Below, piece after piece: positions 5,723 to 54,800 of a stretch of 64,000 bases of DNA. The translations under genes were made by a program, and so were the position numbers. This stretch comes from Phoenix dactylifera. Its lineage: Eukaryota; Streptophyta; Magnoliopsida; Arecales; Arecaceae. The notes under the pieces were generated by a model. It made no database searches and had not been told where the DNA came from. It saw nothing but the letters and a program-made list of their open reading frames with translations. The DNA is taken from the NCBI RefSeq assembly GCF_009389715.1, contig NW_024068246.1, forward strand, positions 1-64,000. Reading direction: 5' to 3'. The first letter of the stretch is position 1, and the number at the start of each line of letters is the position of its first letter.

Positions 5723-5839
5723 ATTCTCTCTCGTTTGTCGCTCGTCTCTTTAAAATCTCCTCCTCCCCGTACTCGAACGAAGGCCAAAACAAAATCCTCG
5801 GGCAATCTCCCTTCTTACCCTCCCCTTGTTTTCTTTCTG

Positions 5840-15148: not shown

Positions 15149-15211
15149 TCTCGGGAACAACGTCTCGTCGTCTACTTCCGCTGCTTTAGCTTTCCGTTCT
15201 TCCTCTCTCAC

Positions 15212-19305: not shown

Positions 19306-19512
19306 ATGGCAGGTGCACCCAATTACCCAGGTCATCCTAACCTTCCACCAAATTCCCTTGCTTCTCTCACTATGTCGCACTCGTTTGCCGATTTCATGAG
19401 ATTTAATCACAATCCAATCTCAGAACAACGCCTCTCTTTAATCTCCATGGAACAACAGTCTCTCTATAGATTCACCAGCTCCATAGCTTCTGCCCACTTC
19501 TTGTGTTTATGA
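19306..19512 (+). promoter_or_regulatory. Upstream ORF 2 (68 codons) in the calmodulin-like gene leader
   Basis: 68-codon frame beginning MAGAPNYPGHPNLPPNSLAS, ending 61 bases before the main ATG at 19574. No family recognised. Its length and position make it a candidate regulatory uORF. A leader intron ending at GCTTGTAG (about 19520) would remove it, so its reality depends on transcript data. Confidence 0.35.
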
Positions 19513-19573
19513 GCTTGTAGCCATCCAAATTCTACCCGAAGGAAACATTGGCAGCCAATTTCTGCGTTCAAAC

Positions 19574-25719: not shown

Positions 25720-26642
25720 ATGAGGAGGAACCACATCAACAAATCTTTCTCTTTCAACTCATCTGGGAGGTTCTACCAAGCCCACTTTCTTTCTAAAAGC
25801 AATAATTTTTTCATAAGCAAGATTTTAATGACCCATTATCATCGGTATGAATTTTTTCAAGGGAAAATACTTTCATCTCCAAAGCATCCCGAATCCAATG
25901 ATATCTCACATCAATATGTTTGGATCTCAAATAAAATGTTGGATTCTTTGAGAGATGGATGATACTTTGTCTGTCATAATAAAGTATATATTTCTCTTAT
26001 TCTTGGCCCAACGCTTGTAAGAAATTTTTTATCCACAAAAGTTCATTACAAACTTATGTAATTGCAATATATTCGGCCTCCATAGTGGATAAAGCAACAC
26101 ATTTCTGTAGCTTAGATTGCCATAACACTTCTCCCACTGGAAAAGTCATCAAGTACCATGATGTAGATTTTCTATAATCTATATCACCGACTATATCAGT
26201 ATCTGTATATCCATCCAACATAGGTTTACCATTACCAAAACATAAATAGACTTTAGAAGTGCCTCTGAGATACCTGAGAATTCATTTGACAACTGCCTAA
26301 TGTTCCTTACCAGGATTAGAAAGAAACCGACTTACAACACCAACTGCATGAGCAATATCCGGCTTTGTGCAAACCATGACGTACATCAAACTGCCAACTA
26401 CGGATGCATAAAAAATCTTCTTCATTTCTTCTTTATCTTTCTGACTTGTAGGACACTGCTTGGAAAACTTTAAGTGACCTATAAGTGTTGAGCAAACTGG
26501 TTTGGACGTGCTCATGTTGAACCTTTCTAATACTTTTTCGGTATATCTCTCTTGAGATAACTAAAGCTTTCTATTTTTCCTATCACAAGTAATTATTATG
26601 CCAAACATTTGTTTAGCTAGCCCCAAGTCCTTCATGGCTACC
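25720..26642 (-). mobile_element. Ty1/copia pol fragment (RT end and RNase H)
   Basis: Read on the minus strand, the clear block at 26515-26297 contains SLMYVMVCTKPDIAHAVGVV and SRFLSNPGKEH, the well-known C-terminal part of plant copia reverse transcriptase. Upstream is the MKDLGLAKQMFG-type segment near 26640, and downstream are RNase H pieces (LSKNPTF..RSKHIDVRYHWIRD near 25950-25880). Only the 3' third of pol is present; it is broken in several places and is a fossil. Its 5' side stops exactly at the edge of the segmental duplication (26641). Confidence 0.85.
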
Positions 26643-27491
26643 AATCATCAAGACAAGCGCATGGCGAATGGATCCCATAGGAACAAGACATGGAGATTGG
26701 TGTAGTGCATGACCGCCTAGCGATAAAATACTTACTCAAATCTTTTAATGATGAAAGTAAACAATTTTGTGGCCAAATTTTTTGTTGTTAAAATTCTGAG
26801 TTTTTTTAGTGAAATAAGCCATGCAGTAAAACATAAACCGTTGGACATTGTCTCCATGGCCTGGTGGCTTCAACGAAAAGCCACTTTAGTAAGATACTGA
26901 ACCAGAATGAATAAATATCTCAGGTATAGAAGTCCTCGCAGGAGGCTGCATAAGTTAATTTTAACTTTTTAGAACTAGAACAAGTAGAAGTCCGGTAGAT
27001 TCAAACCCAGGTCACTAATATTAACATCCAAGAATTTCATCAACCAAGAATTGAATCTGCATCTTTTTTGATGCAATGTAAGATTTGAATCAGCTAGATG
27101 TTGTAGAATTGTTTCTGCAGGTCTGCCTCACATTGACCAATATTTTGTTGTCAAAAAATGTTAGTGTCTCATCTCTTGACACTACAAGAAATAGGGGCTT
27201 TGGCGACGCTTTTTAAGGCTTTTACCGACGCTTATAAGCGTCGGTAATTTTCGTCCCGACGCTTTCCAAAGCGTCGCCAAAGCGTCGGCTATGTCGGGGT
27301 GGAAAAAAAATTGCTGACGCGTTTGAAAAGCGTCGCTAAAGGTTATTTTTAGCGACGCTTAAAAGCGTCGCTATAATCCGTCTAGCAACGCTTTAAAGCG
27401 TCGGGTTTAATTACTGTTTTTAAGTTAGCGACGCTTTAAAGCGTCGTCATAAATTTTTTTTAAAGAAAAAAATATATAAAAATATATTTTC

Positions 27492-27908
27492 TTACCGCAA
27501 CCTGAGGGGAAAACCGATCCGGGCCTCGTCGCGCCACCGGATGGCGGTCTGGAGCTTGGACTGGGTTTCTTTGAGGGAGATGAGGATGGATCGGAAGGAG
27601 CCGTAGGCGTCAGCGAAGCGGAGGAAGTCGTCGAGGAGGCGGTCGGTCCAGGGGGTGGAGGAGCGGCGGTGGAGGGTGTCCTGGGCCTGGGGGAGCTGGT
27701 GGAGGTCATCGAGGGAGGCGTGGAGGAACTCGATCCGGGCGAGGCCGGCGCAGATCCAATCCGGGGAGCCCGACTCTGGCTCCGGGCGGGACTGCCAGGA
27801 CCGGAGGGCGCGGATCTCGTCCTCGAGCGAGGCGAGAAGGCTTCGGCGATCTGCTTCACGGTCAGCGGGACGGCGCCCTGAGCCCTGCGAATCTGAGATT
27901 GAGAGCAT
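27492..27908 (-). pseudogene. Captured fragment of a DUF241 (plant BPS1-like group) host gene
   Basis: 139 codons from ATG at 27908 (MLSISDSQGSG) to a TAA at 27492. Diagnostic stretch: LASLEDEIRALRSWQS, then ICAGLARIEFLHASLDDLHQ, LPQAQDTLHRR, and WTDRLLDDFLRFADAYGSFR followed by LKETQSKLQTAIRWRDEAR. This is the DUF241 pattern (LxxLExLYxxLDDLLQLP..., WVDRLLDxSLRLLD, LQSALRRR) of plant proteins of unknown biochemical role. Only about the N-terminal half of a usual 270-300 residue protein is present. The stop overlaps a donor-like GCG|GTAAGA, so a spliced transcript could go on. The frame is open and uninterrupted, suggesting recent capture. GC content is far above the flanks. Confidence 0.8.
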
Positions 27909-28087
27909 GATCGAGAACAAGGATTCAGAGGTCGAGACATCGAGATCGTGATCTCCACACACAGAGAGAGAGGCAATTGGTACCTTGGCGGGGGAGAAGG
28001 AGGAGGGATCGGGGGCCTGGGTGGCCTAAGAAGGCATGAAGCCGACGCCGGAGAAGAGGGAAGAAGCTCCATCGGACTATCTATGAA

Positions 28088-28460
28088 GCATGGCCGCTCT
28101 CTCTCTCTCTCTCTCTCGCTTCTTGGAAGGGGGCGAGCGGCGGCAAGCGGCGGAGAGAGAAGGGGAAAGGGTTAGAGATTTGTAAGGGAGGGGGTTTGAG
28201 GGATCAGGAGGGTGGAGGGGAGGGGGGAGGGGATTTGTAGAGAGGAGGGGGGAGGGGGCGAAAGATGGTGATGAATTGCGATTGGTCCAAACCTTCTAAA
28301 AGCGGCTTCTTGCGACCTGCCCAGAATGAGGGGGGAGGGGATTTGTAGAGAGGAGGGGGCGAGCGGTGGAGAGAGAAGGGGAGGAGATTTGTAGAGAGGA
28401 GGGGGAGGGGGCGAGCGGCGGAGAGAGAAGGGGAGGGGGGCGGCTGGATGGGTTGGGATC
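28088..28460. repeat. (CT)n run and G-rich tandem repeats inside the CACTA element
   Basis: A CT/TC microsatellite at about 28088-28118, then purine-rich DNA in which GGGATTTGTAGAGAGGAGGG-type units recur near 28231, 28337 and 28385, with GGCGAGCGG.GGAGAGAGAAGGGG between them. Probably the 5' leader region of the captured gene, expanded. Confidence 0.65.
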
Positions 28461-28744
28461 GGGAGGAATTTGCAGGCCTCCGACGACGCTTTCTAAAGCG
28501 TCGTTGGAAAGGAAAAAAAGAAAAAAAAAAAGGGAGATGGCTTCGGTTGGAAAGTTTTCGGCTTCCGCCGACGCTTAAAAGCGTCGGTGTAATCTTATAA
28601 TTTTTCCGCAGCATCGTCTTAGGCCAGATCTACTCACACTTTATAAAAGCGTCGGTAAATTTTGGCGCTTAGCAAAAATTACCGACGCTTTTACTTAGTG
28701 TCGGCAGAGAAAAATCGCGAAAAGTACTTTTTTCTGTAGTGTGA

Positions 28745-30463
<1,719 letters not shown>

Positions 30464-33400
30464 ATGGTTTGGCAAGCAGCTCTTCTTGTTCAGTTGGCGA
30501 GCCTTGCAGCGGCATCAGGAGAACGGCATATCGCTCGGTCCGGCTGCCAGGCGAAGTGCGGAAACGTCAGCATCCCCTACCCTTTCGGCATCGGCGAAGG
30601 CTGCTTCCTCCATGGCTTTGAAATCACATGCAACACATCCTTCAACCCTCCCAAGGCCTTCCTTGGCAGTGGCAACATCGATGTCGAAGAGATCCAGCTT
30701 CTCAAGGGTCGTGTGGTCGTCAATAAGCTTATAGCCCGTGACTGCTACGCCAAGAATGGCAGCCGCCGCAATAGCACGTCCACAAGCATCGTGCTTTCCA
30801 AGCCCTACATGTTCTCCAGCACCCGCAACAAGTTCGTGGCGATCGGGTGCGACACCATCGGACGCCTCGAGGACATGGAGTCGAAGTTCGAGACCGGGTG
30901 CTTGTCGCTGTGCAATAGCACCAGCTACATCACTAATGGGACCTGCAACGGCATCGGCTGCTGCGAAACAGTTATTCCAAAGAAACTCAGGTCCTTCGAG
31001 GTCTACGTCAGCAGCTTTCGCAACCACACCGAGTGTTGGGATTTCAATCCTTGCAGCTACGGCTTCTTGGCTGATGAGGGGCGGCTAAACTTTAGCGTCG
31101 ACAGCTTCTCTCGTCTTGCCAGCACGGAAAAGATCCCGGTGACGCTGTCCTGGGCCGTACGGGACAAGAGCTGCGAGGAAGCTCGCAATAACCGGACGAG
31201 TTTTGCGTGCAAGGCCGAGAACAGCTACTGCGTGAACTCCACCAACGGAGGGGGATACCGCTGCAATTGCTCAGAAGGATTTGAGGGCAACCCTTATCTA
31301 GAAGACGGATGCCAAGGTAATTCCGTTTCTCTTCCCGGTAGCCAGAATTCCGTCTTGACTTGGCAAAACTGAGTATACGCACCGTGCTCTTCCATCCGAG
31401 GTTCAAATCTTGGTTGGGAGGTCTCGCCAGGTGTTTAATTAAAAAGCGAATATCTTCCTTAATTGTTGTATGAGAGAGATCCCTCTAAACTTCCCGCTCC
31501 TCGTATATATAGCTAATAGCTTGAATAATTTCAGAAACACACCATGTACAACTCATAGAATATTCCCAATCTTTCAACTGAAGATGGCGACTACCGATCA
31601 CAACTTAATCTAGTTTTCCATTACTGCTAGTTATCGTTCCATTATAACATCTAATAATAGTTATTTCATTACAAAAAAATCCAATCAGATGTTTTACTAT
31701 GCAAATGATGACAATCATGTTTTCTTAATACTATAGACTCTGAAACTTTTTGATGTCTCGTTGTTGGGGGATATTAGGCTATTAGCCCTGTTCAAATTAA
31801 CCTTGATCATGAGTTTGAATCTCTAGGCATCAGGAAGATCACAGTTGGGCTTTGTGTGGTTAAATGTATTCTTGAGCTTATATAGCCTAATACTACTTTG
31901 CCCACTCATAATCAGCTGGGTTATTTTCCTCTCGGCAGAACAACAACACGTTCATTTAATTTTGAGTGTTGATTACTCGAGTGATAACACCCTTTTAAGA
32001 GTTGGGAATGGTTTGCCTAATTCCTATCCCACTATCTGGAGAAGTTCAGAAATTCTTATTGGTTGGATCAGGTCACCACGGCTGGCCCAACCACAAAGAG
32101 ACGCGTACAAATAGACGGGGAGCAATAGCCAATAAGAAGCGTCCCAATATATTTAGGGGCTTAAGGTGATTTTGTCTTTGCGGCCTTTCCTGCAGTGGGC
32201 CGGCCTAAGGTGAACTCATAAAGTGGTTTTTTTTCTTTCCATTTTATCTTTGAGGCATTTTCTGCGGTGAGCCTTCTTTGGGCCGGAGCCTCGGCCATCT
32301 CAGTCGCCTAAGGGTTGGGCCGGCCCTGGATGTTTGTGTGTTGTCCCAAATTATGGTTGGACTGGTCTATCTCTGAGTTGGCCAGGCATCTCTTTCACCA
32401 AGCTCAGGCATCTCTTTTTGGTCCATCGCCAACCCCAAGCCTCAGAGTTTGGTAAGGTTTCGCCAAGCTTACTCAACCAGTCAAACTAGAGGTCCACTTG
32501 ATAAACCGAGTTTGGGTTGCGAAACTTACATCCAAGATTGGGCTCAGGGTTCGCATATAAGCGTGCAGGTTGTGAGCCGAGTCATGTTTGGCTCAGAAAT
32601 TTAAGTTGAGCCCGGCTTCCTCTGAGATAGCCGAGCCCGAGTCTTTTCTTTTTCTTTTTCTTTTTCTCTTTTTTTTTATTAATCTTGGAAGTTATATGAG
32701 CTGCATTTGAGCGAGGCTCAGCTAGCTCGATTTTGGTTCATACCCAGCTCAAAATTAATAAACAAGCAAAGATAAAAATCATATAATTTTTTTATATATT
32801 AAGATATTTCTGAGCCCTTGGCGACGATGACGCGCGGTAGGGTGGTGCAAGAGATCGTGACGTCATAGGCGAGGATGGAGAATTAGAGAGGAGGCTGGGC
32901 GTGATGGAATAATTTCAAATTATATTTATCATATTATATAATATATATTTATATTTATATTATAATATATATTATATAAAATCAGGCTTGGGTTGCGTTA
33001 ATGTAAACTCGTGCCCGGCTCGTTTATTGGTCGGGCTTAAATTTCAGACTTATCCAATTTTGGGGGCTTAAAGGCCAAGCCGAAGCCCATCCACAATGGT
33101 TCAGGTACGAGCAGAGGCCCCGGTATTTGAGTGGCTATAAATTAGACCTCGCTCTGGTAATCAAGCATTCTGTCCGATCTTCACCCTTGTTATCTTAGAT
33201 TCGGTGGAGGACAGGAGTAAAGGTGGCAAACCATTTACTTGTTAGATTTGGTGGCTGACTTATGTTATCTTAGATCTCTGCTTGCATGCTCAAGTGGGAA
33301 TATCTTAGTACTCTTTCTGACTAACATCTTGATGGCTACTCTCTAGATATTGATGAATGTGCATCTTCACCCTGCGTAGAAAGATGTGAAAATTTCCCTC

Positions 33401-34803
33401 CAGGAAACTATACCTGCCGTTGTCCTTGGCACATGTATGGGGATGGCAAGAAAAATGGAAGCGGCTGCAAATCTATATCCAAGCTCCTCCACTGGGTTCT
33501 AGGTAAGGCTCTCTACCCAACCAAACTAACCAAGTGTTATTAGATCTTCATGCATGATATACATTGCAGATGAAAGAGCCTGGTTTCACATGTATATAAA
33601 CTTCCAATTTACCTCTACGTACTTATTCTTGTAGGCTCAGGGTTTGGTCTCTTAGTTCTCGCGGTCCTCAGTTCTTTGCTTTATCTGATGATCAAGAAGC
33701 GAAGACACATTAAGCTCAAGGAGAAGTTCTTCAAAAAAAATGGAGGTCTTCTGCTACAGCAGCAACTCTCTTCGCTAGAGGGTAGTGCCCCAGTGACAAG
33801 GTTGTTTACCACAGAGGAGCTCTTAGCAGCTACTGACAACTACTTGGAGAGCCGCATCCTCGGCCAGGGAGGTGCCGGGACAGTATATAAAGGAATTCTT
33901 TCGGACAAAACAATCGTGGCGATCAAGAAATCCAGAATATCCGATGATAGCGAAATCGAGCTGTTCATAAATGAGGTGGTGGTTCTTTCCCAGATCAACC
34001 ATAGAAACGTAGTGAAGCTCTTGGGGTGTTGTCTGGAAACCAGAGTCCCACTGCTCGTTTTTGAATTCGTGCCCAACGGATCCCTCGCTCACATGTTACA
34101 CAGTGAAGGTGGCAAAGCCTCGCTGTTCTTGGAGTGCCGTCTGAGGATCGCAACAGAAGTAGCAGGAGCGCTGGCTTACCTGCACTCCGCAGCCTCGGTG
34201 CCTATTATTCACAGAGATGTCAAGCCCAGCAACATACTCTTGGATGAGAACTACACAGCGAAAGTATCTGATTTCGGAACTTCGAGGCTGGTTCCCTTCA
34301 ATCAGAAAGCATTTGAATCATTGATTCGAGGGACCTTTGGATACGTGGATCCTGAGTACTTCCTCACCGGCATGTTCACCGACAAAAGTGATGTCTATAG
34401 TTTTGGGGTGGTTCTGGTCGAGCTCCTCACAGGCGAGAAGCCAGTAGTACCGACAAAATCGATGGAGTTCACCAATCTCGCCTTGCAGTTCGGTTCTCAT
34501 GTGAAGGAAGGCCGTCTTCTCGAGATTCTGGAGCAACGTCTAGTCCAAGAGGGATCTCCTGAGCTGCTTCTAGCAGTTGCGGAGCTTGCGACCCGATGCC
34601 TCAGCTTGAAGTGGGAAGAAAGGCCTACGATGAAGGAAGTCGCCATGGAGTTGGAGGGGCTGAGAACATCCAGCAGGCATCCTTGGGTTGAAAAGAACGA
34701 AGAAGAGGGAGACCGTTTGACGGCAATTGAATGCTCCACAAGTACCTTTGGTGAGGGTGATTCTTCCTCGCACATCATGCTGTCCTTCGACATCTCGCGG
34801 TAA
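30464..34803 (+). CDS. WAKL: Wall-associated-kinase-like receptor kinase, gene A
   Basis: Three exons: 30464-31316, 33347-33502 and 33635-34803, all joined in phase 1, giving 725 residues. A plasma-membrane receptor for cell-wall signals with a cytoplasmic Ser/Thr kinase. Seen: signal peptide (1-18), Cys-rich galacturonan-binding-type domain from [20 protein letters not shown] (28-47), EGF-like repeat ending at 284, calcium-binding EGF beginning DIDEC (285-289) encoded by exon 2, a membrane segment at about 338-356 ([16 protein letters not shown]), and a kinase: GQGGAG loop (413-418), VAIK Lys 434, HRD 529-531, DFG 549-551. HRD with Arg marks an RD kinase; all key residues are present. An in-frame ATG at 30419 would add 15 residues; I prefer 30464 because it precedes the signal peptide and matches gene B. 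Intron 1 (2030 bp) contains two insertions missing from gene B. Confidence 0.93.
31880..32059. mobile_element. About 180-bp insertion in intron 1 of gene A
   Basis: Compared with gene B, where TTCTTGAGC runs directly into AGGACACCAGG (near 41567), gene A has about 180 extra bases between TTCTTGAGC and AGGTCACCACGG. No terminal repeat or family recognised; it could equally be a loss from B. Confidence 0.5.
32140..32332 (-). mobile_element. Second copy of the 197-bp element, in intron 1 of gene A
   Basis: Reverse complement resembles 20420-20616: GCCGGCCCAACCCTTAGGCGACTGAG, GGCTCCGGCCCAAAGAAGG and CTCAAAGATAAAATGG in the same order, ending TTAAGCCCCTAAATATATTG. Gene B lacks it at the matching point (about 41613). 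The 12-bp hairpin seen in the other copy is partly eroded here. Target duplication not resolved. Confidence 0.6.
32340..33120. repeat. Degenerate GCC/GAGC-rich repeat in intron 1 (present in both gene copies)
   Basis: Words such as GAGCCGAGTC, GGGCTCAGG and GGTCGGGCTTAAA recur, with an AT palindromic stretch at about 32925-32985. Matches 41640-42390 in gene B, so older than the duplication. No coding potential seen. Confidence 0.5.
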
Positions 34804-35574
34804 TTGGATTGGATCAAACTGCTCTGGGATTTAATATGCTGCATGTTCTATATCTTTATTTTCAAGATAAGGATGTTTGTCTAATTTTGAACATCACATA
34901 ACAACTTGTATGCAGTTTTTTTTATAGGGTTTGGACATGAGTATATATTATTTCTAAGATATACCAAATGTGTTGGAATAGAAAAAAAAAAAAAAACCTT
35001 TCTCTCTCTTTTTTTTTTTTCTTCTACAAATATTTTAACATAGTACCTCCGATATTAGCATAATTTTAGAGGTCACGTAACAATATGTATCAGCCTATAA
35101 TATTTTTTTTATTAGTATGATCTTGTTAAAATAATTTTAAAAAACACAATAATTTCATCAGTAAGTATTATTTTTTTATTTAATGTCCGAGTATATATAA
35201 CTGCGGAGATGTGCCGAAATAAAAAAATAAAATTACTTTTTTTTCTCTCTTCTTCTACAAATATTTTAATAAGGGAGACTGCAACATGGCAGATCCAAAG
35301 GTTCTAAAAACTACATTAAAGTCTCTTTTTAGCTCTGTTTCTTTAGGTTTATGAGTAACTTCTTCACCCTGTGTACTTTAAGACAAGCTTATTAGAATAT
35401 GAAGAGTAGTATATATTAGACAATCTGAGCCCAAGGCGAGGTAAACAAGATAAACATTGGACACTACAGTACTAGCAGTCGGCATAAAAAAACTAAAAAA
35501 AACATAAAAGAGACATTACTATTTGTTTTTATAAGCTACATCAATTGCCGAGGTTTCAACAATGTCGTAATCTT
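34804..35574. other. 3' flank of receptor gene A
   Basis: AT-rich 3' UTR and beyond. Most of the first 250 bases have no counterpart behind gene B, which lost this piece together with its original stop codon. No further gene seen. Confidence 0.5.
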
Positions 35575-36180
35575 ATAATGAACTTAAAATCCTTATTGAT
35601 TCTTGCTAGAGAAAATATTGCACTTCGACCTCGAACTAGACCAATCTCATTGACCTCAGATGTAAACCGAGGCGAACGATGTCGGCCTCAACTGGGGAGC
35701 ATACCAGCTTAGGAACCTCCAGCCGAGGAGAACAATCAGTGAGCATCGACAAAGGCTGACAGCCCTAACAACCGACGACCTTGCAGGCCGTAGTTGCGGC
35801 AGCACCACACTCTGCGCCAGGCCTGTGCGGCATGCCTCCCATGTGGACTGATCTCTGCACCACATCCTATCACTGGTTATTGCCTATCCATCATTTTACG
35901 CCACGTTGGCCCAGGTAACAACAAAGTTGATTTTTCTATATAAAGGGAGAAACTTGGGGGACCTCACAAAGCGACCCTCTACTAAAATCCTCTCCCTTCC
36001 ATATCGTTGCCTTGATATGCATTGAAAGGTTCCTCTCCAGAAACTCTCCAAAAGTGGACTTCTTGAAGGCCATCCAGTGGAGGAGACCAGCGCCCGACGC
36101 CTCAACTAGCCTACTCAGTCCGCTTCTAGCAGACCTTAGGGTCGTCCAAGCTGCTCTCCCACCTCGGTCCGAATTCGAAT
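35575..36180 (+). mobile_element. LTR-like segment (solo LTR candidate), copy A
   Basis: Moderately GC-rich island downstream of the gene, with CTATATAAAGGGAGAAAC at about 35936, followed by CTCTCCCTTCC and ending CACCTCGGTCCGAATTCG. A TATA box, then a short pyrimidine leader and a CTCGGTCC end, is the usual look of an LTR. No coding region next to it, so if real it is a solo LTR fossil. Edges approximate. The matching segment is 45228-45838. Confidence 0.4.
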
Positions 36181-36589
36181 AATGGTTATATAGCAGCCAT
36201 TTGTTCTCCAAATTTGCCGAAATTGGGATTATTTTGGAAGATAGATTGTTCAAATTTGTAAAAACATAGTGACAATTTGTGTTAAGAAATCATATAAAAA
36301 AGAGGAATTACATGGGATATTGCTTGCCCAAATTTTGAATATGTACTGCAAAATTCTAGCTGGTTATCGAACCAAGAATAAAATATAGGTGGGCATTTTG
36401 GCGTGACAGGGCTTTGAACATTTCCGGCTATCGTCCGAGAAAATGCAACCGAAAAGGAGTGTATCAAAATTGGAAATACTAAAAGTAATTGCGTTTCCTT
36501 TCACGAAATAATCCTAATCATCTAAAATTGGTTGAGATAAATGGATTTGCTTGTGCTATGAACCAAGTATAGCTTGTAGTATCCTCGGT

Positions 36590-37090
36590 ATATGGTTCTA
36601 TTCTCCTTTGGGCTATATTTGGGCTTGGACAGGCCTGAGGCCCGTCAGGCTTGGCCTCAGTTTCAGGTAGTGGAGTCCAAACAACAATGAGGCTAGCCCG
36701 ACTCGAGCCCAACATGGCTCAGCCCAGTCTGCCACCTAACTGGAATATAGGAACCCTTCACCCTTCCTTCCTTCCTTTCCATCTCTCATCTCCTCTCTCT
36801 CTCTCTCTCTCACAATTCCCTTCCCAACTCCCTTATCATTTCTCTTCCTGAGAGCCTCCGGTTGGGTGGTGCCGTCCCCACTGCATCGGGCTAGATTTGG
36901 ATAGGGCATGTTGGATATTTCGGCCGGCCTTGGCTTCGGGCTTGAGTTGGGTTCGGGCTTTAATCTTTAATATTTCGGATCTAGGCCCAGACCAAATCTT
37001 GAAAAATTCATCAAAACTTGAAAAAAAAAATCATCTAAGCTAGGACCATGCTACATGGAAACCTGACCCAACCCAGACTAATAATTCCAG
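36590..37090. repeat. Degenerate GGGCTTGG/GGTTGGG-type repeat downstream of gene A
   Basis: Non-coding, built of GGGCTTGGACAGG, GGCCCGTCAGGC, TTGGGTTCGGGC and ACCTGACCCAACCC words, with a (CT)n at about 36792-36810. The matching stretch is 46260-46745. No gene. Confidence 0.45.
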
Positions 37091-37730
37091 CTCTAACATC
37101 CGATAAAAAAGGGTGCGACCGTGTTAAGATTGATGAATATTAGTCCATGGAAAACATTTCATGGGATAGATAAAACATGGGGCTATCTGGTCAACAGAAT
37201 TAGTGAAATTAATGGGACGAAGAGGGTACCCTGTGAGCTCCTCTCTTGGGAAGTTTCACCTACTATCAAACAAGTCTTGTGATGATACATCCAATTTACC
37301 ATTGTACAGGTCCTGTGGTTCCATTTCCTTAAAAGGAACATGTGCTACATGACAATTAGTTACCTTTGTTAGATGTGCGATCAACTTTAATGTGTGAACA
37401 AATCTTGCATATAACATTAGATCTTCAGTCCTAGAAGTTGGGCCAGCCCACAGACTGAGTTTTATATTGTTTGGAATAAATTGCTAGGCTTTCTTTTTTT
37501 ATAAAAAGAGAAAAGTTCTGAGATGGAAGTGATGTCATGGTCTCATGGAGTCGCGGCAGAGATATTGTACAGAATAGAACTTTTTTTGAAGGATTCATGA
37601 GAAAATATTTGCTAGAAATGCAGAGAAATCAGTTTCAGGCTACAAAAATCCAAAATTTTCATCAATAAAAAAAAAAAAATAGACACAAGGGTCATAGAGC
37701 ATAAAATTTTGCAAGGGAGCCAACCTCTCT

Positions 37731-37875
37731 AGTCCCTATATTTTGCATTGTAGAGATCTATATAAAGTCAGATAGCCACCATATCATTCATCTCGGAGAT
37801 GAAAAATTATGTCGCACACTACATGCACCAGTATGGCTGTGCACCATGCTAATTATCGTGTCTTATTCTTGTGGG
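37731..37875. other. 145-bp spacer between the two duplicated segments
   Basis: Unique sequence (starts AGTCCCTATATTTTGC) between the end of copy A and the start of copy B. It marks the duplication junction. Confidence 0.75.
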
Positions 37876-38411
37876 CCAATCATGGACATGAGAGTATGAC
37901 GAATGGATCCCATAGAAACAAGACACGGAGGTTAGCATAGTGCACGACCCTAGCGACAAAATACTTTTGGTTACTAAAATCTTTTAATGATGAATGTAAA
38001 CAATTTTATGGCCAAATTTTTTGTTGCTAAAAGTCTGAGTTCTTTTAGTGAAATAAGCCATGCAGTAAAACATAAACCGTTGGACGTTGTCTCTAGTATG
38101 CCCGGTGGCTTCAACGAAAAGCCACTTTAGTAAGATACCAAACCAGAATGAATAAATATCTCCGGTATAGAAGTCCTCGCAGGAGGTTGCATAACATTTG
38201 TTTTTAATTTTAACTTTTTAGAACTAGAACAAGTAGAAGTCCGGTAGATTCAACCTCAGGTCACTAATATTAACATCCAAGAACTTCATCAACTGAGATT
38301 TGAATCTGCATCTTTTTTGATGCAATATTATGTAAGATTTGAATCTAGATGTTGTAGAATAGTTTCTGCCTCACACTGACCAATATTTCGTTGTCTAAAA
38401 ATGTTGTATCT

Positions 38412-40202
38412 CATCTCTTGATTTTGATGATCATTTTACATCTTAATCTCTAGCTGTTTACGTATTTATATACAATTGCATGCAAAACATATATAAGTGT
38501 GTAGAGAAATAGATTTAATGATGTGGACCAATATTTAACTATATATAACAAGGACTAACACAAAATCCTAACCAATAGCAAATCTAAAATATACAGGCCA
38601 GTTCAGAAGCCATTCAATACCTTAAGATCCACCTGAAAGGCCTTTCTTAACACCGCATTTTTCTTTTTCAAAAAGGAGGGTTATACATAGGTCATCTTCG
38701 TTGAACAAAAGATGCTATATCTAGTAGTTTTTGTTGACGTCTCTCTTATTTTGATGAAGCTTTGTGACCCCCCTCTTTAATTTGTTGACCTCTCTTTTTG
38801 TTGACCTCTGATGGCCACCTAACTAGTAATAGTAGACAGGATAGAGCGAGTCTCAATTCACTCCCTTTTTCATTGGTTCTTTATTCATCGGTGAACGTCT
38901 ACCCAAGAACTCATGTTTTATCTTCTCCTCTGCTGTCCCGCTCAACTTACGTATTGCATCACCGTGAATATTCCTTAGTTTGAAATTATCTTCAGGTTTC
39001 TATTCTTTGATGGACCCCAATGGAAGACTTTAGCCTCGCGGGACTTTGGTCGACCATCACTTGATTTAAGCCGATTGGGGCTTTGTGCCTCAATTATTGG
39101 CATAAAAATAACGAAAGCTTCTAGAAGATGGTATCCTTTTTATCCACATCCATATTTTATCCATCTTCAAAGTAACTGATCTCCTCAGTGGGCCGGGGGT
39201 GGTCCTCCAGATATTCCGGAAGTACTCCATTTGATGCTCTACTTATTCCTCCAATTCCAGATATTTACCCCGTAGCATGCTGTTTATCCTCTATATATAC
39301 TCTTCTCCGAATCCCTAAGCTTTGTTCATACGACGGGAATAGTACTTGTGAACGCCCAAGTGCCTTGGAACACCATAAAGCGTGGCTCATAAGGCTATGC
39401 ATGATCAGATTTAGTAATTGCAGCTAGCCAATCGACCGTGAAATCTTTTTTCCATGAGAATTCTCATGAGTTTGGATCCTTTATAATGCATTACAGAGGA
39501 ATAAAGGATGGTGCACATTTGGATGGATGATCTAATTGGCATACCAAACAAGCTAGCTCGACGAACCCCATAAGTTGATCTATATTATCTTCAAGATAGG
39601 TGATGTATTAACCATCGATATATATAGCTTTTTTTTTTTTTTTTTTTCCATACGTCCACCATTGGATCATACAATAGTTATTTCGAGATATGTGCAGATA
39701 GATCGATAAAAAAGTTTCGAGTGCCTTAAGAGCCGTGCGCACATTGTTGAGGAAGATCAGTCTGCCTTCCTTTGCTCCGAAGGTTCACCAACCCGAACCC
39801 ATGCAAAACACGCGGAGGATCCAAGACATCCATCCATAGAAGCTCACCGAATCTGACGGCCAGAAATACTCTAGGTTGACTAAAAGTAAACATCAAACTT
39901 TGAAGTCTTCGTCGCACCTTGTTTAATATAAATTACTCGTACTTTGATCAGAACACCATCGCTGTCATACTTCGCCTTTAGCTATAGCGTCGTTCTGGCA
40001 CTGTGGGAATTGATTTGCCGGGCTATGATGATAATGGAGGTCGTCCGAGTGGGGCAGCCGTCGACTATTCTTCGCAATCAAGTGAGCACGCAGCCGTGAC
40101 GCCGGAGCTGTGTCAATTAAAAGGATACGTACCATAGCCCAAAATAGATCCGCAAACGGAGCAGCAGTTAGCCCCTTGTGAGGAAGAAGCTAGAAATTAA
40201 GA
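38412..40202 (+). other. Upstream region of receptor kinase gene B
   Basis: Counterpart of 28742-30463. Holds the preserved empty site of the CACTA element at its left end. A poly(T) run lies at about 39631-39649. No separate gene. Confidence 0.55.
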
Positions 40203-43200
40203 ATGGTTTGGCAAGCAGCGCTTCTTGTTCAGTTGGCGAGCCTTGCAGCAGCATCAGGAGCACGGCATATCGCTCGGTCCGGCTGCCAGGCGAAGTGCGG
40301 AAACGTCAGCATCCCCTACCCCTTCGGCATCGGCGAAGGCTGCTTCCTCCATGGCTTTGAAATCACATGCAACACATCCTTCAACCCTCCCAAGGCCTTC
40401 CTTGGCCGTGGCAACATCGATGTCGAAGAGATCCTGCTTTTCCAGGGTCTGGTGGTCGTCAATAACCATATAGCCCGTGACTGCTACGCCAAGAATGGCA
40501 GTCGCCTCAATAGCACGTCCCCGAGAATCCGGCTTTACAAGCCCTACAAGTTCTCCAGCACCCGCAACAAGTTCGTGGCGATCGGGTGCGACACCATCGG
40601 ACGCCTCGCGGACATGGAGATGAAGTTCGAGACCGGGTGCTTGTCGCTGTGCAATAGCACCAGCTACATCACTAATGGGACCTGCAACGGCATCGGCTGC
40701 TGCGAAACATTTATTCCAAATGAACTCAGGTCCTTCCAGGTCCACGTCGACAGCTACCAAAACCACACCAAGTGTTGGGATTTCAATCCTTGCAGCTACG
40801 GTTTCTTGGCTGATGAGAGACGGCTAAACTTTAGCGTCGACAGCTTCTCTCGTCTTGCCAGCACGGAAAAGATCCCGGTGACGCTGGACTGGGCCGTAGG
40901 GGACAAGAGCTGCGAGGAAGCTCGCAATAACCAGACGAGTTTTGCGTGCAAGGCCGAGAACAGCTACTGCGTGAACTCCACCAACGGAGGGGGATACCGC
41001 TGCAATTGCTCGGAAGGATTTGAAGGCAACCCTTATCTAGAAGACGGATGCCAAGGTAATTCCGTTTCTCTTCCCGGTAGCCAGAATTCCGTCTTGACTT
41101 GGTAAAACTGAGTATACGTACCGTGCTCTTCCATGCGAGGTTCAAATCTTGGTTGGGAGGTCTCGCCAGGTGTTTAATTAACGGGAATATTTTCATTAAT
41201 TGTTTTATGAGAGAGATCGCTCTAAACTTCCCACTCCTGGTATAGCTCGAATAATTTCAGAAACACACCATGTAAAACTCATAGAATCCCACTCTTTCAA
41301 CTGAAGATAGTGACTACCGATCGCAACTTTATCTAGTTTTCCATTACTGCTAGTTACCGTTCCATTATAACATCCAATAATAATTATTTCATTAAAAAAA
41401 ATCCAATCAGATGTTTTACCATCCAAATGACAATCGTGTTATTTTAATACTATAAACTCTGCAACTTTTTGATGTCTATTCAAACCTTGATCGTGAGTTT
41501 GAATCTCTAGGCATCAGGAAGATCACGGTTGGGCTTTGTGTGGTTAAATGAATTCTTGAGCAGGACACCAGGGCCAGTACTCCAACCAGACGCACAAACA
41601 CAGACGAGGAGCAATGAGGTCATGTTTGTGCGCTGTCCCAAGTTATGGTTGGACTGGTCCATCTCTGAGTTGGTCAGGCATCTCTTTCACCAAGCTCAGG
41701 CATCTCTTTTTGGTCCATCGCCAACCCCAAGCCTCGGAGTTTGGTAAGGTATGGCCAAGCTTACTCAAACAGTCAAACTAGAGATCCACTTGATAAACCG
41801 AGTTTGGGTTGTGAAACTTACATCCAAGATTGGGCTCAGGGTTCGCAGATAAGCGTGCAGGTTGTAAGCCAAGTCATGCTTGGCTCAGAAATTCAAGTTG
41901 AGCTCGGCTTCCTTTGAGCTAGCCGAGCCGAGCCATTTTTCTTTTTATCTTGGAAGTTAAATGAGCCACATTGAGCTAGGCTCTGCTTGCTCGATTTTGG
42001 CTCATACGCAGCTCAAAATGATTAAACAAGTAAAGATAGATATCATATAATTTTTATATATATATATTAAGATACTTCCGAGCCTTTCAAGTTGGCGACA
42101 ATTAGGGTAGAGTGGTGCAAGAGCTTGTGAGATCATGCGTGAGGATGCAAAATTAAAAAGAAAGGTGTGCTTGAAGAGATAATTTCATATTATATTTTAT
42201 CACATTATATAATATATGTTTTATATTATATTATAATATATATAATATATATTATATAAAATCATGTTTGGGCTGCGTTGATGTAAACTTGTGCCCGGCT
42301 CGTTTAATGGTCGGGCTTAAATTTTAGACTCGCCTGATTTTGTGGGCTCAGAAATCAGGCCGAAGCTCGTCCTAAACAGTCCAGTTCTCAATATTTGAGT
42401 AGCTCTAAATTAGACCTCCCTCTAGCAATCAAGCATCCTCCCCGATTTTCATCCTTACCCTCCGTTTGGGAGTTTTGGGGAGAAAAGAAAAGAAAGGAAA
42501 ACTTTAATGGGGAGGAAAAAGAAAAGAAAGGAATAGAATAGATTTTCCTCTCCTCTTGTTTGGGAGTTTTAGGAGGAAAGAGAAAGTACTTTCCATCCTC
42601 TTGTTTGAAAATTTGGAGAGAAAAGAAAAGAAAGTATACCTTTTTAACACTTTTACTAAAATACCCTTATTATAAAAGGGGCATACTTATGAGTAGAGGT
42701 GCAAATGGATCGGGATGGATCGGATCATGAGTGACCCCGACCTAACCTGGATCCTTGTTCGGGTCCTAATTTTAGACCCAGGCCCAACCCACTAGAAAAT
42801 CAGGTCAGGTCGGATTGGGTCCACGGCTACAATTTTTGACCCAAAGAGTCGAAATTTTATTTCTTCCATAGAGATGCAGCATATGGGTATATAGAGGTGG
42901 AGATGACATATGAAAGGTTAAAACAAAAGATGCCTTAGGATATATTTGTCCTTTTAATTTAGTACTTTTTTAATTTAAGGGTAAAATAGGTATTATAAAA
43001 AAATTATTAAGTTTCAATTTCTTTCTCTCCAAATCCTTCCACTTATGAGAGGAAAGAAATGAGAGAATTGGTCCCCAAAATTTTTCCTCCTATTCCCTCC
43101 TATTTTCTCCTTTTCTTTTCCTTTCCCTCCATTAAAAAACTTTCAAATATCAAAATTTTTAACTTTCCCTTCCATTCCATTCCTTTCCTTTCTCCTCAAT

Positions 43201-44762
43201 TCCATGTTTTCAAATGGAGCCTTATTATCTTAGATTCGGTGGAGGAGAGGGGTAAAGGTGGTAAACCATTTACTTGTTAGATTTGGTGACTGACTTATGT
43301 TATTTAGATTTCTGCTTGCATGCTCAAGTGGAAATATCTTAGTACTCTTTCTGACTAACATCTTGATGGCTACTCTGTAGATATTGATGAATGTACATCT
43401 TCACCCTGCGTAGAAAGATGTGAGAATATCCCTGCAGGAAGCTATACCTGCTATTGTCCTTGGCATATGTATGGGGATGGCAAGAAAAATGGAAGCGGCT
43501 GCAAATCTATATCCAAGCTCCTCCACTGGGTTCTAGGTAAGGCTCTCTACACAACCAAACCAAACCAAATTAACCAAGTGTTATTAGATCTTCGTGCATG
43601 ACATTCATTGCAGATGAAAGAGCCTGGTTTCACATGTATATAAACTTCCAATTTATCTCTACTTATTCTTGTAGGCTCAGGGTTTGGTCTCTTAGTTCTG
43701 GCTGTCCTCAGTTCTTTGCTTTATCTGATTACCAAGAAGAGAAGACACATTAAGCTCAAGGAGAAGTTCTTCAAAAAAAATGGAGGTATTCTGCTACAGC
43801 AGCAACTCTCTTCACTAAAGGGTAGTGCCCCAGTGACAAGGATGTTTACCAAAGAGGAGCTTTTAGCAGCAACCGACAACTACTTGGAGAGCCGCATCCT
43901 CGGCCAGGGAGGTGTCGGGACAGTCTATAAAGGAATTCTTCCAGACAAAAGAATCGTGGCGATCAAGAAATCCAGAATATCTGACGATAGCGAAATCGAG
44001 GTATTCATAAATGAGGTGGTGGTTCTTTCCCAGATCAACCATAGAAATGTGGTGAAGCTCTTGGGGTGCTGCCTGGAAACCAGAGTCCCACTGCTCGTTT
44101 TTGAATTCGTGCCCAATGGATCCCTCGCTCACATCTTGCACAGTGAAGGTGGCAAAGCCTCGCTGTCCTTGGAGTGCCGTCTGAGGATCGCAACAGAAGT
44201 AGCAGGAGCGCTGGCTTACCTGCACTCTGCAGCCTCCGTGCCTATTATTCACAGAGATGTCAAGCCCAGTAATATACTCTTGGATGAGAACTATACGGCG
44301 AAAGTATCTGATTTCGGAACTTCGAGGCTGGTTCCCTTCAATCAGAAAGGACTTGAATCATTGATCAGAGGGACCTTTGGATACGTGGATCCTGAGTACT
44401 TCCTCACTGGCATGTTCACCGACAAGAGTGATGTCTACAGTTTTGGGGTGGTTCTGGTCGAGCTCCTCACGGGCGAGAAGCCAGTAGTACCAGCAAAATC
44501 TATGGAGTTCACCAATCTCGCCTTGCAGTTCGATTCTCATGTAAAGGAAGGCCGTCTTCTCCAGATTCTGGAGCAACGTGTGGTCCAAGAAGGATCTCCT
44601 GAGCTGCTTCTAGCAGTTGCGGAGCTTGCGACCCGATGCCTCAGCTTGAAGTGGGAAGAAAGGCCTGCGATGAAGGAAGTCGCCATGGAGTTGGAGGCGT
44701 TGAGAACATCCAGCAGGCACCCTTGGGTTGAAAAGAATGAAGAAGAGGGAGACCGAATGTAA
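40203..44762 (+). CDS. WAKL: Wall-associated-kinase-like receptor kinase, gene B (shortened C-terminus)
   Basis: Exons 40203-41055, 43381-43536 and 43675-44762, same junctions and phases as gene A; 698 residues. Same plan: signal peptide 1-18, [23 protein letters not shown]-like region, DIDEC calcium-binding EGF (285 on), membrane segment about 338-356, kinase with GQGGVG loop, VAIK, HRD and DFG intact. The last 27 residues of gene A (from after EEEGDR) are missing: a deletion of about 350 bp relative to A brings GACC next to GAATGTAATTTAAAGATCAC, giving a new stop after EEEGDRM. The kinase domain itself ends before that point, so activity is probably kept. Intron 1 (2325 bp) is enlarged by a Harbinger-like element. 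About 29 residues differ from A in exon 1, nearly all outside the EGF end. Confidence 0.92.
42458..43221. mobile_element. Harbinger/Tourist-like element in intron 1 of gene B (764 bp)
   Basis: Flanked by TTA (42455-42457 and 43222-43224), the 3-bp duplication of PIF/Harbinger elements. Ends CCCTCCGTTTGGGAG and, complemented, GGCTCCATTTGAAAAC form an imperfect inverted repeat. Gene A has the empty site CACCCTTGTTATCTTAG (about 33182). Purine-rich GAAAAGAAAAG on the left is mirrored by TTCCTTTCC on the right. The middle (about 42690-42890) contains an inserted GATCGGG-type repeat. No transposase; non-autonomous. Confidence 0.82.
42690..42890. repeat. GATCGGG-type repeat nested in the Harbinger-like element
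   Basis: Begins AGAGGTGCAAATGGATCGGG and continues with GACCCCGACC, GGGTCC and GACCCAGGCCCAACCC. Same style as 22190-22620. It separates the purine-rich left half from the pyrimidine-rich right half, so it probably inserted into the element. Confidence 0.5.
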
Positions 44763-45227
44763 TTTAAAGATCACATAACATATTTATCAGCGAGTATTAT
44801 TTTTCTTATATAAAGTTTGTACATAAATATATATAACTTCTTAGATGTGCCAATTGTGCTGAAACAAAAAAAAAAAAACTTGGTTTTCTTTCTTTTCTTC
44901 TTCTTCTATAAATATTTTAACAAAAGAGATTGAAAAATGGCAAAACCAAAGGTTCTGAAAACAGCATTAAAGGCTCTTCTTAGTTCTATTTCTATAGGTT
45001 TATGAGTACCTTCTTCGCCGTGTGTGCATTAAGAGACAAGCTTATTAGAACATGAAGAGTAATATATATTAAACAATCTGAGCCCAAGGCGAGGTAAGCA
45101 AGATGAACATTGGACACTACAGTACTAGCGGTCAGCATCAAGACAACTACAAAGAAACATAAAATAGACATCACTATTTGTTTTTATAACCTGCAACTAT
45201 TGCCAAGGTTTCAACAATGCCTTAATC
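44763..45227. other. 3' flank of receptor gene B
   Basis: AT-rich, aligns with about 35070-35574 of copy A. No gene. Confidence 0.5.
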
Positions 45228-45838
45228 TTATAATGGCCTTAAAATCCTTAGTGATTCTTCCTGCAGAAAGTATTACACCTCGACTTCGGATTAAACCAAC
45301 CTCATTGGCCTCGGACATAAACTGAGGCGAATGATTTCAGCCTCAGCCGAGGAGTAGACCAGCTTAGGAGCCGCCAGTCGAGGAGAACAATTAGCACGTA
45401 TCGACAACGGCTGATATCCCTAACAACCGACAGCTTTGCAGCTCGCAGTCGCGGTAGTACCACATCTTGCGCCAGACCTGCACTGCACGCCTCCCACACG
45501 GAATGGCCCCCGCGCCGCGGCCTACCACCGGCTATTGTCTGCCATCATTGTATGCCACATCGGCCCAGGTAACAACAAAGTTGGTTTTCCTATATAAAGA
45601 GAAAAACCTGGGGGACCTCACAGAGTGACCCACTGCTAAAACCCTCTCCCCTCCATACTGCTGCCTCCTTGTGCATTGGAGGGTTCCTCCCCAGATACTC
45701 TCCAGCAAGTGGATTTCTTGCAGGCCACTCAGTGGAGGAAATCAACACCCGACGCCTCAACCAGCCTGCTCAACCCGCTTCCAGCCTACCTTAGAGTCGT
45801 TCGAGCTGCTCTCCCACCTCGGTCCAGATTCGGATAAT
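45228..45838 (+). mobile_element. LTR-like segment (solo LTR candidate), copy B
   Basis: Counterpart of 35575-36180, with CCTATATAAAGAGAAAAACC at about 45590 and the end CCACCTCGGTCCAGATTCGG. Present in both duplicated units, so it predates the duplication. Fossil; edges approximate. Confidence 0.4.
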
Positions 45839-46259
45839 GGTTGTATAGCAGCCATTTCTTCTCCAAATTTGCCTAAGTTGGGATTATTTTGGAAGATGGA
45901 TTGTTCAAATTTGTAAAAACCTAGTGACAAAATTTGTGTTAAGAAATCATATATAAAAAAGGGAATTACACGAGATATTGCTTGCCCAAATGTTGAATAT
46001 ATACTGCAAAATTCTAGATGGTTATTGAACCAAGAACATAATATAGGTTTGCATTTTGGAGAAACAGGCCTTTGAACATTTCCGGCTATTGTCGGAGAAC
46101 ATGCATCCGAAAAGGAGTGTATCAAATTGGAAATACTAAAAGTAACTGCGTTTCCTTTCACGAAATCATCCTAATCATCTAAAAATGGTTGAGATAAACG
46201 GATTTGCTGGTGCTATGAACCAAGTATAGCTTGTAAAATCCTCCGCATATGGTTCTATT

Positions 46260-46745
46260 GGATTCTCCTTGGGGCTATATTTGGGATTGGACAGGCCTAA
46301 GGCCCATCAGGCTTGGGCTCAGTTTCCGGTAGTGGAGTCCAAACAACAATGAGGCTAGCCCGACTTGGAGCCCGACATGGCTCAGCCCAGTCTGCCACCT
46401 AATTGGAATATAGGAACCTTCACCCTTCCTTTCTTCCTTTCTACCTCTCATCTCCTCTCGCTCTCACAATTCCCTTACCAACTCCCCTCTCACTTCTCTT
46501 CCTTAGAGCCTCCAGTTGGGAGGTGCCGTCCCCACTGCATTGGGCTAGATTTGGATCGGGCATGTTGGATATTTCGGCCGGCCTCTATTTCAGGCTTGAG
46601 TTGGGTTCGGGCTGTAATCTTTAAGATTTCGGGTCTAGAACCGGACCAAATCTTGAAAAATTCATCAAAATTTGAAACAATCATCTAAGCTAGGACCATG
46701 CTGCATGGAAACCTGACCCAACCCAGACTAATAATTCCAGCTCTA
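46260..46745. repeat. Degenerate GGGCTTGG/GGTTGGG-type repeat downstream of gene B
   Basis: Counterpart of 36590-37090, slightly shorter. No coding potential seen. Confidence 0.45.
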
Positions 46746-47360
46746 ACATCCGATAAAAAAGGGTGTGACCATGTTAAGATTGATGAAGATTAGTCCATGG
46801 AAATCATTTCATGAGATAGATAAAACATAGGGCTATCGGGTCGACAGAATTAGCGAAAGGGGACAAAAGGGGTACCCTGTGAGCTCCTCTCTTGGGAAGT
46901 TTCACCTACTATCAAACAAGTCCTGTGAGGATACATCCAATTTACCACTGTACAAGTCCTATGGTTCCATTTCCTTAAAAGGAACATGTGCTACATGACA
47001 ATTAGTTACCTTTGTTATATGTACGATCAACTTTAATGTATGAACAAATCTTGCATATAACACTTCTTTCATATCTTCAGTCCTAGAAGATGGGCCAGCC
47101 CACTAATAAATTGCTAGGCTTCCTTTTTTTTAAAAAAAAAGGAGAAAAGTTCTGAGATGGAAGTGATGTCATGGTCTCATGGAGTCGCGCCAGAGATATC
47201 GTACAGAATAGAACCTTTTTTGAAGGAATCATGAGAAAATATTTGCTAGAAATGCAGAGAAATCAGTTTCAGTCTACAATATCCAAAATTTTCATCAAAA
47301 AAAAAAACCCAGACGCAAGGCTCAAAGAGCATAAAATTTTGCAAGGGAGCTAACCTCTCT

Positions 47361-51885: not shown

Positions 51886-54800
51886 ATGATGATAACAAGC
51901 TCATCCAAATATGCACATGAAGGTGGAGAGACCTCCAGCTCTAAACCCATCGAAAAGTGGATGGCATTTCCGAGGGTAGAATCTAAAGCACATTCAAATG
52001 AGATACTTGAGGAATCGAAGGACACTGGAAGCAATCAATCGGCGGCTGAAACGGCAGCAGAACGGGGACTGAGTGGGAATCCTAGCAGCCAAATTGGGGG
52101 CTTGAGGTCATCAGGAGAGGGAACCAAGTTAACCATGGAAAGGACTGTGGAAGGAGCAAGGACATCAGATGAGTCGAGTAATGCTCTGGAATCAAGCTTG
52201 CTTCGGGTCTCTCAAGAACTGAAGGATGCATTGTCAACACTAAAGCAGACGTTTGTTGTATCAGATGCAACCAGGCCTGATTGCCCTATCATGTATGCTA
52301 GTGCTGGCTTTTTCAGCATGACAGGCTACTCATCAAAGGAGGTTATTGGAAGAAACTGGTGCGAGCCATGTCTGATATAGCATCTACTTTCTAAAAATTG
52401 TATCTGGAAATCAAATTTCATGATAGAGCCAAACATTTGGTACTATAAAATCACAAGTTGTAGTTTCTGAAAACAAGCAATATTACAACTATAATAATTC
52501 TAGCAGTGATTCTTCTGAAAAGCAACTTTTACTAGATTTACAGTTCCAGCTTCTTTAAACCTTTGGAAATATTTCATTCATTTTGTTTTTTTTCTTTTTT
52601 TTTTTTGATGCGATGAGGAGGTGAATTACAGGTATCATCATAAGTTTATTAAATAGATAGGCAGTTTATATCTTTGGAGTTCTAACTAGCATTCTTGTAC
52701 AATAACAAAGTAAAATGATTTGATATGAAGTAACACTTCATGCAAATAACTAAATCATCAATTGTATGGCCGAATCAAGCGCACCTAGAATTATCAATTC
52801 TACTATGTTCATGCAACTCTTTTATTTCTTTCTTTTTTCTTTCAGTCGGTTTCTTCAGGGACCAGATACAGATAAGAAGGAAGTAGCAAAAATAAGAGAA
52901 GCTGTAAGGACAGGAAAAAGCTACTGCGGGCGGCTCTTGAATTACAAGAAGGATGGCACGCCATTCTGGAACCTTCTTACGGTGACCCCCATAAGGGATG
53001 ACCATGGGAAGGTTATCAGATTTATAGGGTGAGGTTATTTCTCCTTGTAACTAATGCATTTCTGATAGTTTTCACTCACCTGACCAACTACAACCCATAC
53101 TGAGATGTGCTGTCATGTACCTGCTAAGAATTAATTCCATTACTATAGCTTCAAGAAGCCCCTGCATTATTAAGCAAACACTAGAGGCTCACAGAAGACA
53201 AATGCTGAATAGTATTTGGAGTTTGCATCCATGTAAGGATTAAGTTTTTTGCACATAATGTCCAATTATCACTAGAATCTATGAAGTCATGGTAAGTAAA
53301 CTTGAATATGCCTGGAAATTTCAGATATTCTGTTGTGAACTTTCCAATCATCTAGGACCAATGCCAACTTGCTTAATCGGATACCGTAAAACATAACCTG
53401 CCTGTCAATCATATTCATGAAAGATCTCATCGTACAGATGCTTTTCAATAATGTTTCCCAAATTTATATATGTTGCCTTTTGAAGTCTTCTGAGTCCTTT
53501 GATTTTATTGTTGCCTTAAATTTTAAATACACTATCTAGCTGAGACATCATGTTTCAGAGATGACTTTTCTACATACTTTTCCACATACCCTTCTATACT
53601 TTTCTACATACCTTTCTACATACTTTTCTACCAACATGTCTGAATCATTTAGATTGTAATATTTCAGAATGCAGGTTGAGGTCAGCAAATATACAGAAGG
53701 TCTAAATGACAAAACATTGCGTCCAAATGCTTTGCCAGTGTCACTAATCCATTATGATGGTGAGCATACCCATCAAAAACATTCTAAATATTGAAAAAAT
53801 TGAATCTGCTGAATATGACGGTTTTTTTTGTCAGCACGACAGAAAGAGAAGGCCTTATCATCTATGACAGAGGTTGTCCAGACTGTGAAGCATCGCCGCT
53901 CTCGCTCACAAGCTGCAGATGAGTTTGCTGTCAAGCTTGATGAACATGAAAAGTTCTATGTTGACTCTCCTCTTCAAAAATCTTCAGACATTAAAAATCT
54001 CAAGTCACGAGGTACACTGACTCCTCTACTGGATGCCAACAGCGAGTCACCAAGAATGAGCATTAGAAAATCAGGCCGTTCTTCCTTAATAGGGTGAGTT
54101 CATCATTTTTTAGCTTCAGAGTGTCAAAAGGGGAAAAAATGAAAAGGGATCACTTCATTGATACAATGAAAATTTAGAGAATAAAGCCTGAGATGCAGAA
54201 TGTCGTATCAACTTAAATGACTGCTGTTATTTTTATCTTTCCACATTGGACTAGATATCAAGGCTGGGGAATTGGATTTCTTGGAACAAGCTCTAAAGAA
54301 GATTGATGAAAAGAATATAAAATGGTTTTTTTTCTATATAAATGAAGTTATTTCTATCTTTCCACATCGGACTAGATCTCGCAGGAGGAGAACTGGATTT
54401 CTTGGAACACACTCCCTAAAGAAGATTGATAAAAAGAATGTTAAATGGGAAAAAATCTTGAACTAATAAACTTCTATTCCATGGAAAGAACTGAGAGTAA
54501 ATTTCTGACTAGTGTCCACAATTATGAATAACTGAAAAAAATAATGGCTAAAGGTAATTTCTGTCTCTCACAGAATGAAAACTTAAAAGTAACAGTAATG
54601 GGGAATAAAACTAAACTTTCTAAATGCAAAACTCTACCATAAACATTGGACTAATGAACAAATATCCCTTTTAACTTACCTAGAGGTCTGCAAACTACTT
54701 TTTTCAAGTTCAAAAACATTTAGAAGACCAGGATGCTCCTGCTCCATCCTTCAAACTTCACCATGACAAGTAGTTGAGCTCAATACAGGAGAAGATCAGA

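Follow-up and report, generated by a model that had tools for sequence, protein, structure and literature searches.

The window, which is the whole stretch of 64,000 nucleotides of Phoenix dactylifera DNA analyzed here, contains a tandemly duplicated segment on its plus strand, with a first unit at 26641-37730 and a second at 37876-47360. Their identity across aligned pieces runs from 80 to 94%, apart from one short piece at 76%, and the first includes a 1.56-kb stretch (27180-28741), missing from the second. Within this stretch, upstream of gene A and absent upstream of gene B, lies a minus-strand frame with a BPS1 match (27495-28025). Each unit carries one three-exon wall-associated kinase (WAK) gene, A in the first and B in the second, and both are open WAK-type gene models with matching exon phases, GT/AG splice sites, and intact frames. 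On the plus strand, exon 1 (30464-31316 in A and 40203-41055 in B) encodes, as read in A, a signal peptide, the GUB_WAK_bind domain (residues 28-86), the WAK-type Cys-rich region, and the start of the EGF domain; exon 2 (33347-33502, 156 nt, and 43381-43536) is EGF-like; and exon 3 (33635-34803 and 43675-44762) encodes the membrane segment and the kinase, followed in A by the full C-tail. The proteins comprise 725 aa (A) and 698 aa (B). At the end of the B kinase exon (44739-44762), the protein is 27 residues shorter than A; copy M, described below, has the longer tail.

Pfam comparison placed GUB_WAK_bind above its cut-off of 29.4 bits in both proteins (42.5 in A and 39.4 in B), with kinase domain scores of 163-164 bits in each. 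The WAK domain PF08488 (cut-off 22.1) scored 24.0 bits in B, above the threshold, and 19.1 in A (21.3 for exon 1 alone), below it; EGF_CA matches were weak and under the cut-off of 27 in both (19.2 bits in A and 20.7 in B). The DIDEC motif at the start of exon 2 is typical of the EGF/EGF_CA repeat, and the membrane segment is a 14-residue hydrophobic stretch ahead of the kinase, spotted by eye. With WAK/WAKL receptor-like kinases, A and B share the signal peptide, GUB_WAK_bind, the WAK-type region, the EGF-like exon, the membrane segment, and the Ser/Thr kinase, as well as the three-exon structure and the tandem arrangement, but differ from them in the subthreshold scores of EGF_CA (A and B) and PF08488 (A). 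A and B thus belong to a small tandem array of wall-associated receptor kinases. WAK genes have roles in pathogen and cell-wall sensing.

Elsewhere in the window, two Aa_trans (Pfam) amino-acid transporter genes (5597-8790 and 9892-15217) lie in opposite orientation as diverged inverted duplicates, and a frame for a calmodulin-like EF-hand protein occupies 19487-20158. The frame at 51886-52380 resembles the start of a phototropin, with a LOV-type motif, and has no Pfam match in that exon. The stretch 57043-57659 and its reverse complement align at 72%, and 3901-4145 holds short direct and inverted repeats with several frames open on both strands.

A search of the 773-Mb genome gave 43 matches, 30 of which are given as loci. 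The window belongs to a contig with two copies, A and B (C599), and the matching contig (C22) has three, A', M, and C. Array differences aside, window positions 19421-51470 are collinear with C22, mostly at 96-99.6% identity; A' is identical to A in exon 1 and differs from it at 7 of 6129 sites across the gene region. The two contigs differ in copy number, and we infer that they represent two haplotypes; an error in contig assembly may also underlie this picture of the array. Copy C (L031 and L032; C22:2011746-2015471) carries a 728-bp insertion in kinase exon 3 and approximately 2.1 kb of extra unrelated sequence close to the C-terminal end of the kinase, and judging from these two features, it is probably non-functional. 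Inverted ends and a target-site duplication were sought for the 728-bp insertion, and none were found (longest candidate repeat, 4 bp). A further WAK array (L010-L014), with nearly identical exon 1 sequences, has three copies on contig C719 and two on C1, perhaps another haplotype pair differing in copy number.

The first-pass annotation of this DNA had counted codons with replacement and silent changes between A and B (29 and 7 in exon 1, 5 and 2 in exon 2, and roughly 20 and 33 in exon 3) and read them as diversifying selection on the ectodomain next to a conserved kinase. Our recount returned exactly the same numbers for exons 1 and 2, and 21 and 36 for exon 3, with a difference between exons 1 and 3 (Fisher P = 4.2e-5). 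By region, exon 1 has 1 replacement and 3 silent codons at positions 1-66, 28 and 2 at 67-245, and 0 and 2 at 246-284. The proposed clustering within 67-245 holds for the replacement/silent contrast inside versus outside (P = 3e-4, with boundaries picked after seeing the data), but the replacement codons alone are weakly clustered in exon 1 (P = 0.099, largest-gap permutation).

Nine exon 1 codons carry two A/B differences, and NG86 path counting gave 11.5 changes at 186 silent sites and 33.5 at 666 replacement sites, a replacement share of 74% against approximately 78% expected by chance. Pairwise counts were made by NG86, along with codon models (GY94 F3x4, M0/M1a/M2a) run in our own code, not in PAML. 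Exon 1 yielded dN 0.052, dS 0.065, and ω 0.81 by NG86, and ω 0.62 by maximum likelihood (ML) with codon frequencies (P = 0.20 against 1); for codons 67-245, the NG86 values were 0.081, 0.058, and 1.40 (one-sided P = 0.26), with an ML ω of 1.03. Exon 2 had ω 0.75 (NG86) and 1.11 (ML). Conservation of the kinase was borne out, exon 3 having dN 0.026, dS 0.170, and ω 0.15 by NG86 and 0.20 by ML (P = 6e-9), and the ω values of exons 1 and 3 differ (2ΔlnL 8.6, from ML lnL differences). Estimated on its own, exon 1 is not different from ω = 1, but with a single silent rate imposed on exons 1 and 3, its ω drops to 0.42 and ω = 1 is rejected (2ΔlnL ~14). Neither an ω significantly above 1 nor a robust site class above 1, which would signify diversifying selection, was found in A and B.

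The silent divergence of exon 1 is unusually low. Synonymous differences number 12 of 186 in exon 1 versus 39 of 256 in exon 3 (Fisher P = 0.004), with a borderline difference between the ML silent rates (2ΔlnL 3.8), so the replacement skew of exon 1 is partly due to the low silent rate and not to replacements alone. An overlapping minus-strand gene could in principle constrain silent sites, given a 189-aa frame (30515-31084) that is open in both A and B. That this explains the pattern is extremely improbable, and we rejected the candidate, since the frame itself changes just as freely (dN 0.065, dS 0.078), matches no Pfam family, and is interrupted by stops in outgroup O3. The outgroup pair O1/O2 likewise has a lower dS in exon 1 (0.141) than in the kinase (0.232), so that the low silent rate between A and B need not all come from conversion. 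As a neutral reference, K80 between the units was taken by region: it is 0.12 upstream and 0.135 in the 3' flank, 0.04 for intron 2, and 0.075, 0.17, and 0.05 for three successive stretches into which intron 1 was divided; the dN of 0.08 in codons 67-245 is no higher than the K80 of the flanks. This patchiness indicates exchange between copies.

Sites at which A, B, M, and C split two against two provide evidence of such exchange. The 57 sites fall into 8 runs, and none of 20000 shuffles gave as few (mean 38.4, minimum 22). In A coordinates, the order is AB|MC to 29121, AM|BC at 29501-30018, AC|BM at 30021-30983, and AB|MC again at 31286-33129, with exon 3 mainly AM|BC. Among the sites that distinguish M from C, B is mixed at 38419-38865 (10 C-like and 8 M-like), C-like at 15 of 15 in 38866-39692, and then M-like at 8 of 8 in 39693-40202, 22 of 22 in exon 1, 72 of 80 in intron 1, and 2 of 2 in exon 2 up to 43430. 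From there, it is C-like at the single late exon 2 site, at 4 of 4 intron 2 sites, and at 23 of 26 exon 3 sites (27 of 30 for intron 2 and exon 3 combined); the borders of these block counts were picked after earlier inspection of the data. The M-like block in B (39693-43430) thus covers approximately 510 bp on the promoter side, exon 1, intron 1, and the first third of exon 2, with a C-like backbone around it and the switch located between 43430 and 43511. The array is a mosaic with block conflicts beyond chance, of the kind that identify gene conversion or unequal exchange, and the conversion alternative raised in the first-pass annotation is accordingly supported.

At the 12 exon 3 AM|BC sites with outgroup bases, O1 and O2 side with A/M in 4 cases and B/C in 3 (5 undecided), a split from which A, too, likely took part in exchange. 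M and C are near-identical in intron 1 up to approximately A position 33089 and yet differ at 22 of 853 exon 1 sites; their ectodomain differences thus adjoin sequence that appears freshly equalized. Since conversion is in evidence for the four array copies, the divergent core of one gene might have been imported from a more distant family member, and B indeed has outgroup-like bases at three codons (40, 229, and 233) that are alike in the other three copies. We consider such an import improbable: among the 43 genome matches, no donor was found outside the array, the other exon 1 sequences being at most 62% identical to A at the protein level, and the core lacks the elevated silent divergence that a distant donor would bring.

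Codon comparisons covered exon 1 of 20 of the 30 loci, leaving out L017, L021-L030, and the L010-L014 kinases; site models were fitted to the four array copies alone, to these plus O1 and O2, once without C, and to six tandem WAK genes of a sister cluster (C2). Taken at face value, the earlier reading implies that diversifying selection acts strongly on A and B. Exon 1 has 17 replacement and 2 silent codons between M and C and 20 and 3 between B and C, and the raw M1a/M2a comparison for the four copies is significant (2ΔlnL 11.5, P = 0.003). However, pairwise ML ω values are 1.84 for M/C (P = 0.34) and 1.49 for B/C (P = 0.48), and part of the change in C, with its insertion and extra sequence, may be unconstrained. 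Allowing multi-nucleotide changes lowered the statistic to 4.7 (P = 0.10); with O1 and O2 added, the values were 6.5 (P = 0.04) and, with multi-nucleotide changes, 2.0 (P = 0.37), and the set A, B, M, O1, and O2 gave 6.3 (P = 0.04, uncorrected for multi-nucleotide changes). The raw statistic of 11.5 was reached in 24 of 45 null simulations; these, like the 60 for C2, relied on a single M2a start with the multi-nucleotide rate kept fixed, and slower fits may be under-represented. Residues replaced between A and B are enriched at positions selected in C2 (7/28 vs 23/244, P = 0.02), an enrichment that is weaker when restricted to 67-245 (6/27 vs 16/150, P = 0.09). Given that the focal site tests fail once controls are applied, A, B, M, and C settle the matter of selection neither way, and strong selection in A and B is, in our estimate, unlikely. 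The step from the A/B counts to diversifying selection is too strong for this pair alone, whose pattern is compatible with a loosely constrained ectodomain together with gene conversion.

The contrast between ectodomain and kinase is real and recurs among tandem WAK genes elsewhere in the genome. Among the six C2 genes, pairwise ω was 0.61-1.10 in exon 1 and 0.18-0.42 in the kinases, with exon 1 above the kinase in 15 of 15 pairs; for O1/O2, the values were 0.65 and 0.18. C2 exon 1 gave a 2ΔlnL of 60.3 in the M1a/M2a comparison, with 12.6% of sites at ω 5.6, and 55.2 after gap masking. The signal persisted when exon 1 was divided into thirds with their own trees as a recombination control (summed 2ΔlnL 43.6, P = 9e-8), when multi-nucleotide changes were allowed (23.0, P = 1e-5), and under both together (23.1, 6 df, P = 8e-4). 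When recombination and multi-nucleotide changes were both built into 60 null simulations, none reached 55 (95% point 22.8, maximum 28.4); this spread means that the chi-square P of the uncorrected statistic is too small, and the signal nonetheless holds. In the kinases of the same six genes, 2ΔlnL was 1.7 (0.7 after trimming).

Diversifying selection is therefore real in the WAK family, acting at the level of sites in the C2 ectodomains, where the tests have enough power to reveal it. This bears on whether relaxed constraint alone, with a loose ectodomain core, a tight kinase, and no replacement favored, accounts for the pattern. The exon 1 ω of 0.62-0.81 and core ω of 1.03 between A and B, not different from 1, agree with such an account, as does the failure of the controlled focal tests, but the C2 ectodomain class at ω 4.9-5.8 survives the controls, and the ectodomain cysteines and ends remain conserved. 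We therefore regard relaxation alone as rather unlikely, even slightly more so than strong selection in A and B. The earlier reading probably holds for the family, by the C2 genes, but is not demonstrated by the A/B pair, with core values of 1.03-1.40 and no robust class above 1 in the focal copies. The AlphaFold2 model built from the two-row alignment of A and B had a mean pLDDT of 26.5, unusable for placing the changed residues, and we accordingly make no claim that these sit on the surface; a phmmer search revealed no solved relative of the ectodomain core, only weak EGF matches and one chance-level match (best E 0.14).

Two reports, as far as the excerpts available go, indicate that the selection bias of WAK ectodomains is already known. 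In an Arabidopsis RLK pan-genome survey, WAKL ectodomains have more positively selected sites than kinases, and the WAK1 tandem group is in the top 20 (PMC12382012); that survey differs in covering the pan-genome of one species, and gene conversion is unmentioned in the excerpt. For Rosaceae WAK/WAKL genes, to which roles in pathogen and cell-wall sensing are ascribed, 26 positively selected sites (M2a/M8), mostly extracellular, are described with an overall ω well below 1 (PMC10278292). Those sites, in the portion of that report available, concentrate in GUB_WAK_bind, whereas the C2 sites also lie far beyond it (105-108, 143-153, 193, 218, 226, and 266 in A numbering). In titles and abstracts from one open-licence collection, a search that is no proof of absence, neither gene conversion nor unequal crossing-over was found together with wall-associated kinases, and nothing in that collection combined WAK, ectodomain, gene conversion, and diversifying selection. 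What is new here is the chimeric copy and the two- versus three-copy array, as a new instance.

Our preferred explanation, to which we assign a probability of roughly 0.7, is a tandem WAK array with exchange between copies, a kinase under purifying selection, and an ectodomain core that tolerates and partly favors replacements. Ectopic conversion or unequal recombination would pass sequence between copies while purifying selection holds the kinase; the signal peptide, start, cysteines, and EGF end of the ectodomain would likewise be held, and replacements in its core tolerated and in part favored. Exchange would reset silent and intron differences patchwise and carry whole ectodomain blocks from one kinase backbone to another, and this resetting and block transfer would leave the A/B pair rich in replacements and poor in silent changes, with ω close to 1 without exceeding it. 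The selection seen in C2 presumably also acts on A and B, and its source, judging from the family, would be ligand or pathogen recognition.

The locus illustrates how a raw replacement/silent count misleads when silent differences stay low and codons are doubly changed. It also offers a controlled case, with one array on two contigs of unequal copy number, a chimeric receptor, and the kinase as an internal control. More tentatively, exchange in WAK arrays may swap ectodomain cassettes between kinase backbones, B being a haplotype-specific chimera with a C-like upstream flank and kinase and an approximately 3.7-kb M-like ectodomain block ending within the EGF exon. In combination with selection at individual sites, swaps of this kind could be the engine of WAK diversity.
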